Shown here piece after piece: positions 14,411 through 21,366 of a stretch of 23,049 nucleotides of DNA; position 1 is the stretch's first letter, and every line of letters begins with the position of its first letter. The DNA comes from a virus: positions 1 to 23,049 of the IMG/VR virus record IMGVR_UViG_3300032309_002412; one strand, written 5' to 3'. The translations under genes were made by a program, and so were the position numbers. The notes beneath the pieces were generated by a model that saw nothing but the letters and a program-made list of their open reading frames with translations, did no database searches and was not told the origin of the DNA.

Positions 14411-14430
14411 AGCATAAATACCGTTATGCT
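14411..14430 (+). promoter_or_regulatory. Late-promoter octamer within an inverted repeat at the start of the membrane gene
   Basis: CATAAATA (14413-14420) lies inside the inverted repeat AGCATAA (14411-14417)/TTATGCT (14424-14430), whose right arm contains the ATG at 14426. If it is a T4-type late promoter, transcription would begin at about the ATG. As RNA from upstream, the hairpin would occlude the start. Either way it marks a possible phase-specific switch. Confidence 0.4.
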
Positions 14431-15550
14431 ATTTGGATATGTTATTTTAGTCACAGCTTTATTGCTGAGTACGGTTGCTGCTTACTACTCTATTTCTGGT
14501 CTTACTGCCATTTTCGCCGCTGCTGTTGTGCCGGTGATCATCATGGGCGGTGCACTTGAGATAGGTAAAGTTGTTGCTACAGTATTTTTGCACAAGAATT
14601 GGTCAAGACTGAGTTGGGGATTTAAAAGTTATTTAATACCGGCGGTGGTATTGCTGATGTTGCTGACCAGTTTGGGTATCTTTGGTCTGTTGTCTAAAGC
14701 ACACAGTGATCAAAGTCTAGTATCAGGTGATAGTTCAAGTCAGGTTGCTGTAATTGATGAACGTATACGAACACAACGGGAAAATATTGATGCTGCTCGA
14801 CAGGCTCTTAAACAATTGGATGCTAGCGTGGATCAAACCATGTCCCGTACCACCGACGAACGTGGCGCCACCCGTAGCGCCAATCTCCGCCGTAGCCAAC
14901 AAAAAGAACGTGACCAATTACAAGCTGATATTGCTAAAGCACAAGTATCGATTGCCCAATTAAACGAACAACGTGCACCACTAGCGGCTGATCTGAGAAA
15001 AGTTGAAGCCGAAGTTGGGCCAATCAAGTACATAGCCGCATTGGTCTATGGTGACAACCCCGACGCTAACTTACTTGAACAGGCAGTACGTTGGGTTATC
15101 ATACTGATCGTTGTAGTGTTTGATCCACTAGCATTGTGTCTAATACTAGCAGGTAATCGAGAGTTGGCTTGGGCACGTGAAGCAAAACAACGACCGATCA
15201 TAACTACACCTGACCCTGTGCCTGAGGAACCAGTTGATACCACTCCACTATATGTTGTTGATGTAGATGAAAAGCCAACAACAGAAGAAAAAGCTGCATA
15301 TGAACAAGACGACGGACCGTTGACTGATAATCAAATTAAACAAATTCGAACTAGATCTAATCGACCTAGGACCTATAGAGCAACTACTAAAAAAATAACA
15401 ACTCCTGCACCTGCAGTGACTCCTGATGAGCCTGCGGCACAAGAAATGCCCATCGGAGATTTTGTCGGCGTTCCTGCTGAACCTGACCCCGACACACTGT
15501 TGAAAAAAGCCAAAAACTTGCCCAAAGTCACAATGCCAAGTTTTGACTAA
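14426..15550 (+). CDS. Four-TM membrane protein with central coiled coil, unknown function
   Basis: In the 374-aa product, TM helices are predicted at about 4-20, 25-45, 68-89 and 222-242. Between TM3 and TM4 is a long charged coiled coil (105-200; IDERIRTQRENIDAARQALK). After TM4 comes a hydrophilic tail (245-374) rich in Pro, Thr, Asp and Glu. With the N-terminus inside, the topology puts the coiled coil in the periplasm and the tail in the cytoplasm. Such proteins are frequent and unexplained in environmental T4-like phage genomes. Superinfection exclusion, a membrane scaffold or holin-related roles are all possible. The tail (TTTPAPAVTPDEPAAQE style) looks disordered. The ATG at 14426 has no Shine-Dalgarno and sits in a hairpin. 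Confidence 0.75.
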   Translation: MLFGYVILVTALLLSTVAAYYSISGLTAIFAAAVVPVIIMGGALEIGKVVATVFLHKNWSRLSWGFKSYLIPAVVLLMLLTSLGIFGLLSKAHSDQSLVSGDSSSQVAVIDERIRTQRENIDAARQALKQLDASVDQTMSRTTDERGATRSANLRRSQQKERDQLQADIAKAQVSIAQLNEQRAPLAADLRKVEAEVGPIKYIAALVYGDNPDANLLEQAVRWVIILIVVVFDPLALCLILAGNRELAWAREAKQRPIITTPDPVPEEPVDTTPLYVVDVDEKPTTEEKAAYEQDDGPLTDNQIKQIRTRSNRPRTYRATTKKITTPAPAVTPDEPAAQEMPIGDFVGVPAEPDPDTLLKKAKNLPKVTMPSFD

Positions 15551-15612: not shown

Positions 15613-16782
15613 ATGTCGGAAATTAAACCAACGCATTGTAGTTTTTGTAGCAAGTCTCAAGAACAAGTTGTTAAACTGGTGGTGGCGCCCGGGGCTGGCA
15701 TTTGTAATGAGTGCATAGAACTCTGCTCTAAGATACTATCTAAAAAACCCAAGGTTGCTGACGCTAACAGCGAGTTCAATTTAGATCCACAGGCCATATA
15801 CAACTATATGGACCAGTATGTTGTAGCCCAGAGTTATGCCAAGGAAAAACTGGCGGTTTCGGTAGTAAACCACTATAAAAGATGTCTTTTTGACGACGAA
15901 AACCGCATAGAAAAAACCAATATATTGTTCTGGGGTCCAACGGGTACTGGAAAGACATTATTGGCTAAAACTATTGCGGAATTCCTAGGAGTCAAGTTTG
16001 TAATAGTGGATGCTACTACATTAACTGAAGCTGGATATGTAGGCGACGATACCAGTGTTATCATTGAAAAACTTTATCAAACAGCCGACAATGATGTAGA
16101 AGAAACCGAACGTGGAATTGTGTTTATTGACGAAGTGGATAAGATAGCTAGAAAAAACGAACCCTTCACTGGGGGGAAAGACGTTAATGGTGAAGGTGTG
16201 CAACAAGCATTGCTTAAATTAGTTGAGGGTACACGAGTTAAAATAACCACTCCAAGAAAAGGGTTCGGTAGTGACACTGTGGAAATCAACACAGCCAAAA
16301 TACTATTCATTGCATCGGGTGCATTTGTAGGACTAGACGAATTAGTTAAACGACGTCGTAGTACTGCTAATATAGGCTTTACTGGTAATGCGGTTAGTAC
16401 CTCAGTTTCAAGACTACCAGCTGACTCTGTGGATTTCATCAAGTTTGGTATGATACCCGAGTTCATGGGGCGTTTTCCGTCAATTGTACATACCAACAAC
16501 TTAACTGCGGACGACCTTTGTCAGGTTATACAAAACACAAACAATGGTGTATTAGCACAGTATAAATTCTATTTTGCTGCTAACCAAATTGAGTTAAATA
16601 TTGATGACGCTGTAGTTGTTGCTATTGCCAACCACGCTGTTAAAATGAACTTGGGTGCGAGAGGACTACGTTCAATATTTGAGCTGATCACACACGATTA
16701 TTTGTTTAATATTGGGGCACTAACTGAAAACAAAGTAACGCAAATTACACTAACAACCGAGGATGTACAAAAATACCTATGA
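15613..16782 (+). CDS. clpX: Phage-encoded ClpX, AAA+ unfoldase of ClpXP
   Basis: The 389-aa product (E. coli 424) has the full ClpX layout. A C4 zinc-binding domain (C9, C12, C31, C34; CSFC and CNEC) precedes Walker A GPTGTGKT (108-115), pore-1 loop GYVG (141-144), Walker B GIVFIDEVDK (168-177) with E174, the ClpP-docking IGF loop (254-256), an Arg finger in EFMGRFP (R287) and sensor-2 GARGLR (R353). The enzyme unfolds tagged proteins and feeds ClpP. No ClpP is in this window, so host ClpP is the likely partner. The pore-2 RKH loop of E. coli is replaced by PRKGFGSD, lacking the histidine, which could change substrate choice. The stop overlaps the bS21 ATG (ATGA). Confidence 0.96.
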   Translation: MSEIKPTHCSFCSKSQEQVVKLVVAPGAGICNECIELCSKILSKKPKVADANSEFNLDPQAIYNYMDQYVVAQSYAKEKLAVSVVNHYKRCLFDDENRIEKTNILFWGPTGTGKTLLAKTIAEFLGVKFVIVDATTLTEAGYVGDDTSVIIEKLYQTADNDVEETERGIVFIDEVDKIARKNEPFTGGKDVNGEGVQQALLKLVEGTRVKITTPRKGFGSDTVEINTAKILFIASGAFVGLDELVKRRRSTANIGFTGNAVSTSVSRLPADSVDFIKFGMIPEFMGRFPSIVHTNNLTADDLCQVIQNTNNGVLAQYKFYFAANQIELNIDDAVVVAIANHAVKMNLGARGLRSIFELITHDYLFNIGALTENKVTQITLTTEDVQKYL

Positions 16783-17024
16783 ATAAATTTCGATCAACCG
16801 ACAATCGACCGCCAGGCAATCGTGTTTATGTAGTCAATGACAATGTGGACCAAGCACTGCGTAAATTCAAAAAGCGAGTCAATGACAGTGGCTTACTCAA
16901 AGACTTGCAAGCTAAGGAAGCCTACGAAAAGCCCAGTATTACACGCAAGATCAAAGCCAAAGCAGCAAGAAACCGTTGGCGGAGGAAATTGTCTTCTGAT
17001 ACCGTACCGAAAAAATTGTACTAA
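16779..17024 (+). CDS. rpsU: Phage-encoded ribosomal protein bS21
   Basis: The 81-aa, strongly basic product has the bS21 pattern throughout: VNDNVDQALRKFKKRVNDSG (19-38), YEKPSITRKIKAKAARNRWR (49-68). Cellular bS21 is ~70 aa and sits on the 30S platform next to the anti-Shine-Dalgarno, where it helps mRNA selection. It is the last-assembled and exchangeable small-subunit protein, so a phage copy can replace the host one and bias initiation. bS21 homologues are known from other phage genomes. This one has a ~15-residue N-terminal extension (KFRSTDNRPPGNR). The ATG overlaps the clpX stop by 4 bases, implying coupled translation. GAGG lies ~19 bases upstream, too far to be a standard ribosome site. 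Confidence 0.9.
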   Translation: MNKFRSTDNRPPGNRVYVVNDNVDQALRKFKKRVNDSGLLKDLQAKEAYEKPSITRKIKAKAARNRWRRKLSSDTVPKKLY

Positions 17025-17108: not shown

Positions 17109-17576
17109 ATGACTAATTATACCATTCAGGGTTTTGATTTACCCACATTACATCGCAAGTTCATTGGCTTTGATCCGCTGTTTGAGGATCTTACACGAGC
17201 CTTTGCTAACAACAAGTCCGACAACTATCCACCTTACAACATCTTTCGTATTGGCGAAACCCAATACTGCATTGAAATTGCTGTGGCTGGATTTCAAGAT
17301 ACCGAATTGGATATCACACTGACCAATCGTGTGTTGTGTATCACAGGCGAAAAGAAAATCGACGCTGCTGCAGGCGAGCGTGAATATCTTTTCCGCGGTA
17401 TTGGTGCTAGGGACTTTGAGCGTAGTTTTACGCTAGGCGAACACATGGAAGTAACTGGTGCTGCTATTCGTCATGGTATCCTAACTGTGACCTTAGAACA
17501 ACAGGTACCCGAGAGTGCTAAACCCAAAAAGATCTCAATCGCTCGTGAACCCGAGTTGACCAAGATCAAAAAATAG
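17109..17576 (+). CDS. Small heat-shock protein Hsp20 (alpha-crystallin family)
   Basis: The 155-aa product is IbpA-like. It has an N-terminal F-D-P-L-F-E-D-L segment (21-28), an alpha-crystallin domain at about 42-131 (YNIFRIGETQYCIEIAVAGF; LDITLTNRVLCITGEKK; FERSFTLGEHMEVTGAAIRH; GILTVTLEQQ) and a C-terminal I-x-I anchor (I142-S-I144). It is an ATP-independent holdase that binds unfolding proteins. In T4-like aquatic phages Hsp20 is a recurrent gene, thought to assist virion assembly or stress survival. AAGGAG (17098-17103) is 5 bases before the ATG and TATAAATA precedes it, so high late expression is expected. A strong hairpin follows the stop, separating it from clpS. Confidence 0.95.
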   Translation: MTNYTIQGFDLPTLHRKFIGFDPLFEDLTRAFANNKSDNYPPYNIFRIGETQYCIEIAVAGFQDTELDITLTNRVLCITGEKKIDAAAGEREYLFRGIGARDFERSFTLGEHMEVTGAAIRHGILTVTLEQQVPESAKPKKISIAREPELTKIKK

Positions 17577-17588
17577 TGTAAAATACTT

Positions 17589-17607
17589 GGGGAGCATTGA
17601 GCTCCCC
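17589..17607 (+). terminator. GC-rich hairpin between hsp20 and clpS
   Basis: GGGGAGC (17589-17595), ATTGA loop, GCTCCCC (17601-17607), a perfect 7-bp stem. It is followed by AACTTACTTC, so there is no U-tract for an intrinsic terminator. It may attenuate read-through, protect the hsp20 mRNA 3' end or tune clpS. It also contains the TTG at 17597 of a longer clpS frame, which argues against that start. Confidence 0.55.
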
Positions 17608-17629
17608 AACTTACTTCAAGGTATACAAT

Positions 17630-17941
17630 ATGAATGAAACTGTAGTTGACACTATTAAAAAAACACGGACTCAAAGTGTCGTCAAAGAACCTCCTCAATA
17701 TCGTCTTATTTTCATAAATGACGATGTTACTACATTTGAATTTGTTGTAGAAACACTAGTGCAAATGTTTGACTACGAATATGAGGACGCCGGAGAATTG
17801 GCTAAAAAAATCAATGAAGAAGGCAGTGGTACGGTTGTGGTTCTACCATACGAATTAGCTGAACAAAAGGGCATTGAAGTTACGCTGCTGGCTCGCAGTC
17901 ATGGCTTTCCATTACAGGTTAGAATTGAGCCCGAGATTTAA
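17630..17941 (+). CDS. clpS: ClpS-like N-degron adaptor with altered binding pocket
   Basis: The 103-aa product matches ClpS over its whole core: PPQYRLIFINDDVTTFEFVV (21-40), then MFDYEYEDAGELAKKINEEG and a C-terminal strand LQVRIEPE. ClpS delivers proteins with bulky N-terminal residues to ClpA(P). Ungapped alignment to E. coli ClpS keeps N34-D35-D36 and T38 (here 30-32 and 34), but M40 becomes F36 and H66 becomes N62. Both positions line the N-degron pocket. The adaptor's partner is normally ClpA, yet the nearby unfoldase is ClpX, so it may act on host ClpA, as an inhibitor, or with an altered specificity. The start at 17630 is preferred (CAAGG 8 bases before it); the longer frame would start inside a hairpin. 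Confidence 0.88.
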   Translation: MNETVVDTIKKTRTQSVVKEPPQYRLIFINDDVTTFEFVVETLVQMFDYEYEDAGELAKKINEEGSGTVVVLPYELAEQKGIEVTLLARSHGFPLQVRIEPEI

Positions 17942-18585: not shown

Positions 18586-19167
18586 TTACGCAGCGGCTTC
18601 TATCATCAAACGCCACTCGTTGTCGCCAAAATGATAGTCGTCTAGTATTTCCAACATCAATGTCAATGTTGATCGCTGTCGTTCTAAATCAATTATTTCT
18701 TTTTCCCGGCGGGCTATTAAATTTTCCACAAACCCTTTAAGAAAATTTTCCCCGCTGGACTTGACCCATAATTTTTTATGCGTCCGTTGAGCGTTGTTGA
18801 GTTGGCGGCGAGCATGTTCTACATTGTTTGCAAGTTGATTTAAGGCTTGATGTATATCTATACGCATTTTGCCTATGAGATCTTCTGCGTCAGCGTTTAG
18901 GTCTGGTACATAGTGATTAATCATATTGCCCAGGCGTTCTATCGCGGCCCCGCGAATGTTGTGTGTTTGATCAAACTGTCCGGTACGATCGTATTCAGCT
19001 CGACGAACTGTGTCACTTAGCACTTCATAAGCTATACTGATACGTTTAAAACGTTCAGTATCGCCCCCGCGGTCTGGATGGTGTTGATGCGCTAGTGTTC
19101 GATATTGTCGTTTAATATCTTCCTGCGAACAGTTGGGCTGCAGTTCCAGCTCTTGGTATAGATTCAT
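18586..19167 (-). CDS. J-domain (DnaJ-like, class C) co-chaperone
   Basis: The 193-aa product begins with a complete J domain (1-66): MNLYQELELQPNCSQEDIKR, the HPD tripeptide at 30-32 (HQHHPDRGGD) and FKRISIAYEVLSDTVRRAEY. J domains stimulate ATP hydrolysis by DnaK/Hsp70. The Gly/Phe region, CXXCXGXG zinc repeats and DnaJ client-binding domains are absent. The rest (75-193) is helical with likely coiled coil (LNQLANNVEHARRQLNNAQR; ARREKEIIDLERQRSTLTLM) and probably binds a specific client. No DnaK is in the window, so host DnaK is the presumed partner. It lies on the minus strand, divergent from the tRNA promoter. AAAAGAG precedes the ATG. Confidence 0.92.
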   Translation of the reverse strand: MNLYQELELQPNCSQEDIKRQYRTLAHQHHPDRGGDTERFKRISIAYEVLSDTVRRAEYDRTGQFDQTHNIRGAAIERLGNMINHYVPDLNADAEDLIGKMRIDIHQALNQLANNVEHARRQLNNAQRTHKKLWVKSSGENFLKGFVENLIARREKEIIDLERQRSTLTLMLEILDDYHFGDNEWRLMIEAAA

Positions 19168-19229: not shown

Positions 19230-19319
19230 GGAGCGTGGGCCGGATGGTAAGGCAGCGGATTGCTAATCCGTACAACGTCTCAAAGCGTTGATAGGGTTCG
19301 ACTCCCTAACGCTCCGCCA
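19230..19319 (+). tRNA. tRNA-Ser (anticodon GCU)
   Basis: A 90-base class II tRNA. Acceptor GGAGCGT pairs with ACGCTCC (19309-19315), followed by G and encoded CCA. The anticodon stem GCGGA/TCCGT encloses TTGCTAA, anticodon GCT at 19262-19264. There is a long variable arm (AACG..CGTT) and a GTTCGACT T-loop region. It reads AGC/AGU codons. Confidence 0.95.
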
Positions 19320-19324
19320 ATAAT

Positions 19325-19398
19325 GCGGGTGTAGTTCAATGGTAGAACGGCAGCCTTCCAAGCTGCATACGAGGGTTCGATTCCCTCTACCCGCTCCA
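19325..19398 (+). tRNA. tRNA-Gly (anticodon UCC)
   Basis: A 74-base tRNA. Acceptor GCGGGTG pairs with TACCCGC (one G-U). The D-arm is GTTC/GAAC. The anticodon stem GCAGC/GCTGC encloses CTTCCAA (anticodon TCC). The T-arm is GAGGG/CCCTC. Encoded CCA at 19396-19398. It begins 6 bases after the tRNA-Ser and reads GGA/GGG. Confidence 0.95.
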
Positions 19399-19403
19399 AG
19401 ATA

Positions 19404-19479
19404 CCGCCCGTAGCTCAGTGGATAGAGCAACAGCCTTCTAAGCTGTGGGCCGGAGGTTCGATCCCTCCCGGGCGGGCCA
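19404..19479 (+). tRNA. tRNA-Arg (anticodon UCU)
   Basis: A 76-base tRNA. Acceptor CCGCCCG pairs perfectly with CGGGCGG. The D-arm is GCTC/GAGC. The anticodon stem ACAGC/GCTGT encloses CTTCTAA (anticodon TCT). The T-arm is GGAGG/CCTCC. Encoded CCA at 19477-19479. It reads AGA/AGG. It shares an almost identical anticodon-arm sequence with the tRNA-Gly (CAGCCTTCnAAGCTG). Confidence 0.95.
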
Positions 19480-19540: not shown

Positions 19541-20617
19541 ATGGCGTTGAAAATAAAGGATGTAATTGGATTAATAATTACCTATGTTGGAACCAAGTCA
19601 TTAGGTGCAGTTCCGTTAAAGCCCGCCATTGGAGTTAACATACAAGGGACTCCAGCCATGTCTGTAGATCTGTTTGCTGTTTTAGGTGGTATGTTTCCCA
19701 ACTTGTCTGCTGCTATTAGCAGCACTTTAACCAAGGCATTCGATGGCCTAGCACTAAGTTTAGGGCTTGATCCTAAAAATCTTTTCATGTCCAGCCCACT
19801 AGGGCCAATAGCAAAAGACATTAGCAACACGGTAAACAGTTTTGTTAGTGACCTTAAACTTAGTGCTAATATTGGTATGGACGCTGTTACTAGTGAATTT
19901 AACACAGCAGTGGGTGCTTTAAAGTCCACCGCTGATCAGGTCTTGGGGTTGCCCTCAACGGCTTGGGGGTCATTAGATTTTGGACCAGGGGCTGACCTGA
20001 TATCTTCTGGCGCCCAAATACTGAATCCGGCAGCATTAACTAGTAACCTAACAGGTACGATAGCTAATTCAGTTGCAATAGATCAAGCTATACAGAAAGG
20101 CACAACAACTATTTTATTAGATGCGGCCAAAGCTGATATATCTCTTATTAGCTCTAGATTGACGGGTGCGTTGGATCAAACTGCTAGAGATCTACTAGGG
20201 CAAGAATTAAAAACCACACTGCAGAGTTATACAGGGCAATTTAACGCTCAAGTGTCGGCATTTGAGACGGCTGCAGCCGACATTAATAAAAGTATGAACT
20301 CAGTATCAGAGATGTCGGCTCAAATAGTTCCCCCTAGTATAAACATTAAAGGTGGTGAAGCCATAATGGCTGAGATGGAGAAGTCCAAGGCCCTATACAC
20401 CCCCGAGCAACTAAATTCTGCTGCAGCAATAGTGGCCAGATGGGATGCAGCAGTTCTGCCAGTCTTTAAAGAACAAGTTTTACCCACTATAGACGAAGCA
20501 TTGGCCATGGAATCCAATACCAGCATAACCGCTACTGATCGACTAGCGGCCGCATCCACAGGCATTACATACAACAACGGCTACCCCGACGGAGTCAACT
20601 TGCGGTATGACACTTAA
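19541..20617 (+). CDS. Late-expressed helical protein, unknown function (possible virion protein)
   Basis: The 358-aa product is rich in Ala, Ser, Leu and Thr with few charges. The N-terminal ~60 residues are hydrophobic (VIGLIITYVGTKSLGAVPLK; MSVDLFAVLGGMFPNLS). A long run of amphipathic helices follows (SNTVNSFVSDLKLSANIGMD; DLLGQELKTTLQSYTGQFNA; FETAAADINKSMNSVSEMSA), with a Tyr/Asn-rich C-terminus (GITYNNGYPDGVNLRYDT). No TM helix is certain and no catalytic motif is seen. The exact late promoter and strong GGAGG suggest high late expression, as for a structural or internal (ejected) protein. I do not recognise the family. Its stop shares TTAA with the stop of the convergent peptidase gene. 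Confidence 0.72.
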   Translation: MALKIKDVIGLIITYVGTKSLGAVPLKPAIGVNIQGTPAMSVDLFAVLGGMFPNLSAAISSTLTKAFDGLALSLGLDPKNLFMSSPLGPIAKDISNTVNSFVSDLKLSANIGMDAVTSEFNTAVGALKSTADQVLGLPSTAWGSLDFGPGADLISSGAQILNPAALTSNLTGTIANSVAIDQAIQKGTTTILLDAAKADISLISSRLTGALDQTARDLLGQELKTTLQSYTGQFNAQVSAFETAAADINKSMNSVSEMSAQIVPPSINIKGGEAIMAEMEKSKALYTPEQLNSAAAIVARWDAAVLPVFKEQVLPTIDEALAMESNTSITATDRLAAASTGITYNNGYPDGVNLRYDT

Positions 20618-21366
20618 ATATCCAGTGCAACGTCAAACACCCAATTGTCCATGGTTTCTTGACGCATGTAATCAAAGGTTAGCCAACAGTAGCCGCCCAT
20701 GCACCAGTCTGTACCAAAGCTGTTTCTGGCCAGCACCAATTCGCGTTTGAGGTCATAGCCCACCAAACACATGGCATGCCCGCCCAAGGGTTCTGCACCA
20801 GCTGCGGGCAATGTTAGTATGTAATCAGTGGAGTCTTCTAACCGATCAAATTCTCTATAAACCAGTAGACTAAATGTTATGGGTCGGTCAGAATTCAACA
20901 CGTCTAGTATGTCGGGCAAGCCCACTACACGACGATAATTTTTGATGTTTCTTTTTTTGGCATCATCGTAACTGGCTTCGGTGGGTGTGATGTTAAAATA
21001 ATCGATTCTATAAGGCCATACACGTTCGTCGCATACACCATACTGCTGAACAGCCTTAATTGCGTCTCTGATGTAGGCGCCAACGTCTTCGTTGACCACA
21101 TCTTCCAGCAGTCTAGCATTGTAGTACACAAATAGTCTACTGAGTTCAGCGGCTTGGGCAGCATGGTCGCGATTAATCAGTAGTTCATATGCACCAACCA
21201 CTGCTTGACCAGTACAACTGCCCAACCGCCCTTGTTCTTCAACTGTACTAGCCCAGGGGCGTAGATCTACAACATCCCGCAATGGTTTCAGAGTAGATTC
21301 GTAAACAAGGTCGCGCCAATCTGAAGGATCAGCACGAACTCGATATTGTCTAGCTCGAACAGTCAT
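20614..21366 (-). CDS. Papain-like (C1-family) cysteine peptidase
   Basis: The 250-aa product carries a complete C1 active site. The oxyanion Gln45 and nucleophile Cys51 lie in VEEQGRLGSCTGQAVVGAYE, His197 in LGGHAMCLVGYD, and Asn215 in ARNSFGTDWCMGGYCWL. Cathepsins are made as proenzymes, but here the mature-type motif VDLRPW begins at residue ~33, so there is no long propeptide. No signal peptide is apparent. The family is widespread in bacteria but unusual in phages. Possible roles are processing virion proteins, degrading host surface or intracellular proteins, or acting on the structural products of its own operon. Its ATG overlaps the upstream stop (TAATG), so the genes are coupled. Confidence 0.88.
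   Translation of the reverse strand: MTVRARQYRVRADPSDWRDLVYESTLKPLRDVVDLRPWASTVEEQGRLGSCTGQAVVGAYELLINRDHAAQAAELSRLFVYYNARLLEDVVNEDVGAYIRDAIKAVQQYGVCDERVWPYRIDYFNITPTEASYDDAKKRNIKNYRRVVGLPDILDVLNSDRPITFSLLVYREFDRLEDSTDYILTLPAAGAEPLGGHAMCLVGYDLKRELVLARNSFGTDWCMGGYCWLTFDYMRQETMDNWVFDVALDI

Follow-up and report, generated by a model that had tools for sequence, protein, structure and literature searches.

ClpS is already known from phages: a review of the jumbo phages assigns it to the ClpAP protease of the host (PMC7824862), the Agrobacterium phage Atu_ph07 is reported to encode ClpX, ClpA, ClpB, a ClpP and ClpS together (PMC6102473), and the phages that carry the ribosomal protein bS21 are known to have Hsp20 and Clp genes nearby (PMC9723584). 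In the Caulobacter protein, the alpha-amino group is in contact with the counterparts of residues N34, D36 and H66 of E. coli ClpS (PMC12493166), the numbering of which is used here for all pocket positions. The gatekeeper at position 40 is an Arg in the ClpS1 of plants (PMC7966870); in that of Leptospira, which still binds its ClpA with a Kd of 0.44 uM, it is a Tyr (PMC12493166). The N-terminal extension of ClpS is the part engaged by the ClpA channel, and a proline junction protects ClpS itself (PMC9663308). Neither a phage N-degron protease as such nor a ClpS with Asn at position 66 was found in the open-access literature.

The current report examines a clpS gene in a 23,049-nucleotide stretch of viral DNA, referred to here as the window (positions 1 to 23,049 of the IMG/VR virus record IMGVR_UViG_3300032309_002412). 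On the reading that we favor, to which we assign a probability of about 0.6, the ClpS protein of the window would be the N-degron adaptor of a large tailed phage, adjusted in its specificity and serving a ClpAP protease that is encoded by the phage.

The clpS gene and its neighbors

The clpS gene (positions 17,630 to 17,941, + strand) extends from an ATG to a TAA codon and is predicted to encode a protein of 103 residues. The first-pass annotation had called this protein a phage ClpS from the sequence alone, and the identity was borne out by a match to the Pfam ClpS family (PF02617; 6.9e-23, 80.7 bits with the cut-off at 23, covering positions 1-79 of 80) and by a fold match to solved ClpS proteins. 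The best score against the NCBIfam ClpS equivalogs was 66.8 bits, below the equivalog cut-off of 149, which would be consistent with a divergent phage branch of the family. An AlphaFold model built with 51 family members has a mean pLDDT of 87.7, with values above 90 in the core; its N-terminus is disordered, and residues 1-11 score low. The nearest solved structures to this model were all ClpS, and it could be laid on most of the E. coli and Caulobacter entries, including peptide-bound complexes, with an rmsd of 0.6-1.2 Å. With the window protein alone as the query, no relative was found among the genome contigs; an alignment was required as the query.

For the residue comparisons, we used what we take to be the E. 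coli sequences of ClpS and of the ClpA N-domain, the first of which agrees with the PDB alignment. The alignment confirmed what had been read by eye in the first-pass annotation, i.e., that N34, D35, D36 and T38 are kept while M40 is replaced by Phe and H66 by Asn (residues Phe36 and Asn62 of the window protein). It also revealed a third change that had been absent from that annotation, the replacement of M62 by Ala (residue Ala58). V43 and L99 are unchanged as well; both are hydrophobic positions of the pocket, as is Ile65, which is also retained. The three contacts to the ClpA N-domain, E79, E82 and K84, are present (E75, E78 and K80 of the window protein), and the N-terminal extension consists of 21 residues with an E-P-P junction at its end. 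The numbering that we assumed for the ClpA N-domain matches the residues named in PMC12493166.

Upstream of clpS and in the same orientation is clpX (15,613 to 16,782), the 389-residue product of which scores above the NCBIfam ClpX equivalog cut-off and displays a C4 zinc finger, Walker A and B motifs, a GYVG pore loop and the IGF loop for ClpP docking. This gene is followed by a homologue of ribosomal protein bS21 (16,779 to 17,024) and, directly upstream of clpS, by a gene for an Hsp20 small heat-shock protein (17,109 to 17,576). Among the 119 viral loci that extend far enough upstream to be counted, Hsp20 adjoins clpS in 113, and bS21 and ClpX occur near clpS in 96 and 82, respectively. The cultured phage PA5oct has the order clpX, S21, two unknowns, a heat-shock protein and clpS, and clpX-bS21-hsp20-clpS is a conserved block common to PA5oct and the window. 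A gene for a J-domain (DnaJ-like) protein lies beyond clpS on the opposite strand (18,586 to 19,167, - strand); it is a nearby proteostasis gene, and its membership in the cluster is less certain. Other features of the window include a 374-residue protein encoded upstream of clpX (14,426 to 15,550), which occupies the same place in 93 of the 119 viral loci and matches no PHROG, its only Pfam match, to DUF4407, being weak and below the cut-off; three consecutive tRNA genes (19,230 to 19,476) that separate the J-domain gene from the following one; and a gene for a papain-family cysteine protease (20,614 to 21,366, - strand).

The gap between hsp20 and clpS contains a perfect 9-bp hairpin, TTGGGGAGC-ATTGA-GCTCCCCAA (17,587 to 17,609, + strand), which ends 20 nucleotides before the clpS start codon and matches no Rfam family. 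A similar hairpin precedes clpS in 85 of the 119 viral loci, with 71 different stems, as compared to 2 of 119 in shuffled sequences. Because a T-run follows it in only 6 loci, the hairpin seems to be a conserved structured leader and not a terminator of the ordinary kind. A motif of the TGTAAATA type before the hairpin was dropped from consideration, having been found in only 32 of the 119 loci, and matches to the T4-late-like sequence TATAAATA in the window were no more frequent than our chance expectation.

Positions 40, 62 and 66 of the N-degron pocket

The first-pass annotation had treated Phe40 and Asn66 together as marks of an altered pocket, a proposal that stood for Asn66 and did not stand for Phe40. 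Of 119 ClpS proteins from IMG/VR, 71 have Met at position 40, 23 have Gln and 9 have Tyr, and the rest have other residues, Val and Phe among them. Phe40 is found in 27 of the 29 cellular ClpS proteins from one sampled phylum of bacteria, to which a Prevotellaceae genome belongs; the first cellular set had been collected with search patterns that favored Met, Gln or Phe at this position, and fair cellular counts for position 40 are those from the profile-based sets only. The idea that the two substitutions are equally diagnostic was rejected on the basis of this commonness of Phe40 in a cellular phylum. With Phe40 ordinary and Asn66 rare, the two differ in the weight that sequence comparison would give them.

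Position 66 was surveyed in 120 distinct viral and about 171 distinct cellular ClpS proteins. His66 occurs in 114 of the 120 viral proteins; Asn66 is limited to the window protein, L001, L002 (with L003) and L160, and Asp66 to L072 and L180. All but two of the cellular proteins have His66, the two exceptions being Asp66 proteins from the same phylum of the Prevotellaceae genome, and Asn66 was never seen among the roughly 171, so that the cellular alignment which could have made both replacements commonplace did so for Phe40 and not for Asn66. Three cultured phages also lack the His: Atu_ph07 has Glu, Vibrio phage 2.275.O has Asp and GAP32 has Lys. An almost invariant pocket residue has been replaced in several phage lineages, by Asn, Asp, Glu or Lys, and these natural variants could be used to test the need for the His and which N-termini phages remove. 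In the L072/L180 clade, Asp66 is accompanied by a His in place of Lys84, a ClpA contact, and a 202-kb contig of this clade (G030) exhibited neither ClpA nor ClpP.

Ala62 is present in all 4 Asn66 viral proteins, versus 3 of the 116 other viral ClpS, and Asp36 in all 6 viral proteins without His66, versus 17 of 114 with it, for which a Fisher p of 3e-5 is overstated since only two clades are involved; the associations of Asp36 and of Ala62 come down to one or two evolutionary events.

In the tree, the four Asn66 proteins fall into a single clade (support 0.89). The closest relative of the window protein, L001, is 92% identical to it in amino acid sequence (dN 0.045, dS 0.504), and Asn66 persists in L002 (61% identity) and in L160 (52%), specified by AAT in two members of the clade and by AAC in the other two. 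Because dN is low relative to dS, and because the residue persists down to 52% identity with both codons in use, Asn66 is, as judged from these comparisons, stably inherited under purifying selection and the product of neither chance nor decay. A decaying N-degron pocket in a protein with some other role, e.g., as a general modulator of ClpA, might be imagined from the Cronobacter phage GAP32, whose ClpS has Lys66 and has lost D35 and D36; for the Asn66 clade, which retains all other pocket contacts over 52-92% identity with a low dN/dS, we find such a history scarcely credible. The viral ClpS proteins as a whole also form one clade (support 0.94), although this monophyly is partly due to how the viral set was collected. 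A derivation of phage ClpS from the Phe40-rich bacterial phylum was unsupported, given the viral clade at 0.94 and the presence of Thr38 instead of His or Asn at position 38.

In the window protein, the trio that contacts the alpha-amino group is incomplete, with N34 and D36 kept and H66 replaced. Since these three are the amine contacts in Caulobacter ClpS, the Asn66 clade retains the remaining two. The missing His weakens the claim of a canonical pocket and leaves family membership unaffected, because accepted ClpS proteins such as Leptospira ClpS1 are also without it. The Asn66 pocket might have gone further and now read another class of N-termini, no longer Leu, Phe, Tyr or Trp. Such a shift would agree with the near invariance of His66 in cells, with the altered pocket wall that Ala62 brings to the same clade and with the example of Leptospira ClpS1 (Tyr40, Ala62 and Asp66), for which a different specificity has been suggested by its authors (PMC12493166). 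It is nevertheless unlikely, in our estimation, as the retention of Asn34, Asp36, Val43, Ile65 and Leu99 favors continued binding of free hydrophobic N-termini.

ClpA and ClpP as probable partners

Neither ClpA nor ClpP is encoded in the 23-kb window. We looked for both in the records from which the viral loci were taken, with Clp_N in a frame of more than 700 residues as the criterion for ClpA. Among the 15 viral ClpS contigs that are 200 kb or longer, ClpA was found in 12 and ClpP in 14; the contigs without ClpA were G030, G042 and G043. In one record, G038, the ClpA frame has only 337 residues. Both proteins are also encoded by 6 of 7 cultured jumbo phages. The sole long contig with an Asn66 ClpS (G033, 318 kb) encodes ClpA and ClpP as well. 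Its ClpA (769 residues; best NCBIfam match ClpA, 7.8e-241) has both Walker A motifs, KYRG and GYVG pore loops and an IGF loop; its ClpS-docking site has kept E28, T81 and R86, with Arg at position 23 versus Glu in E. coli. The Ser and His motifs are present in its ClpP. In each of the 11 phage ClpA proteins examined, two Walker A motifs are accompanied by a D1 pore loop, an IGF loop and a loop that reads GYVG or GFVG, and most of these proteins have kept the ClpS-docking residues Glu23, Glu28, Thr81 and Arg86. Many of the phages (records G011, G024, G026, G032, G035-G038 and G045) carry two ClpP-like genes, one near-canonical and one divergent, an arrangement reminiscent of two-ClpP systems. 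"Acinetobacter phage MD-2021a" (L293, CAKLQF020000008.1) was set aside as phage evidence because its argC, clpS and clpA genes are consecutive; the record resembles bacterial chromosome that has been labelled as phage.

The presence of ClpA and ClpP in most of the ClpS-carrying huge phages suggests a viral N-degron protease that is complete in itself. We infer from these relatives that the phage of the window also has ClpA and ClpP, and a phage-encoded natural partner is probable because ClpA and ClpP genes are present in most of the long relatives, the Asn66 phage G033 included. The host protease would be the alternative recipient, as proposed for the ClpS of jumbo phages in general (PMC7824862); host ClpA is engaged through the same contacts, E79, E82 and K84, and 3 of the 15 long contigs (G030, G042 and G043) have a ClpS with no detected ClpA. 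Delivery to host ClpAP in place of phage ClpAP does not strike us as likely, however, in view of the phage-encoded pairs in 12 of the 15 long contigs and 6 of the 7 cultured phages, with the Asn66 phage among them.

The first-pass annotation had also raised the possibility of a decoy that blocks the N-end-rule degradation of the host via ClpA. As considered here, such a ClpS would occupy host ClpA without delivering substrates and thereby block host degradation of N-degron or SsrA-tagged proteins. There are precedents of a kind: the SPO1 protein Gp53, an adaptor-like protein, alters host ClpCP (PMC6873191), and any ClpS, including the His-less Leptospira ClpS1, slows ClpAP on SsrA-tagged proteins (PMC12493166). 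The window protein, on the other hand, has its delivery features intact, with the ClpA contacts E79, E82 and K84 and the N-terminal extension with its E-P-P junction; its core and most of its pocket residues are likewise intact and under purifying selection, and its relatives encode ClpA and ClpP themselves. A decoy is consequently very unlikely.

As an adaptor for phage-encoded ClpAP, the protein would bind other proteins via a free N-terminal destabilizing residue and hand them to a ClpA-ClpP protease encoded elsewhere in the same phage genome, with host ClpAP as a possible second partner. Asn66 would take the place of the amine-contacting His, the contacts by Asn34 and Asp36 being kept; Ala62 would widen the pocket wall, and the rim residue at position 40 would be free to vary. 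N-degron binding would then be expected to persist, with an altered affinity or side-chain preference. We likewise infer that the phage ClpS, ClpA and ClpP meet, as well as what they degrade. No Leu/Phe transferase was found in the 16 viral records tested, and the N-degrons would therefore have to come from cleavage or from host enzymes. A changed substrate set for the Asn66 ClpS is possible and would be the interesting case. The boldest version, in which the phage ClpAPS of one clade, with His replaced by Asn and Met62 by Ala, reads N-termini that are unread by any studied cellular ClpS, is in our opinion quite unlikely; if it were true, modified or beta-branched N-termini, for example, might be read and degradation might be aimed at proteins that the host spares.

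Comparison with known ClpS proteins and phage adaptors

There is a likeness in gene order to the Pseudomonas phage PA5oct, whose ClpS (EST35_0260) is likewise a phage ClpS in a clpX-bS21-hsp20-clpS arrangement and whose genome has its own ClpA and ClpP; unlike the window protein, PA5oct ClpS has kept His66. The ClpS of Atu_ph07 (gp708) resembles that of the window in being a phage ClpS without His66, with Glu at this position instead, and both of these phage proteins lie outside the Asn66/Ala62 clade. Another comparison is to SPO1 Gp53, a phage adaptor-like protein that acts on a Clp protease, but which is 25 kDa in size and targets host ClpC in Bacillus; it was compared by its description only (PMC6873191).

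The E. coli and Caulobacter ClpS proteins share with the window protein the same fold and residues N34, D35, D36, T38, V43, L99, E79, E82 and K84, and differ from it at M40 (Phe in the window), M62 (Ala) and H66 (Asn). The ClpS proteins from the phylum of the Prevotellaceae genome resemble it in that position 40 is aromatic (Phe or Tyr) and position 62 is Ala, Thr or Ser, yet they have His66 in 27 of 29 cases and mostly His or Asn, not Thr, at position 38. ClpS1 of Leptospira interrogans comes near to the window protein in its combination of an aromatic residue at position 40 (Tyr) with Ala62 and the lack of His66, and its ClpA is a functional partner; it differs in being a cellular protein, in having Asp rather than Asn at position 66 and in having His38 and no equivalent of Lys84, two positions that are both standard in the ClpS of the window (PMC12493166).
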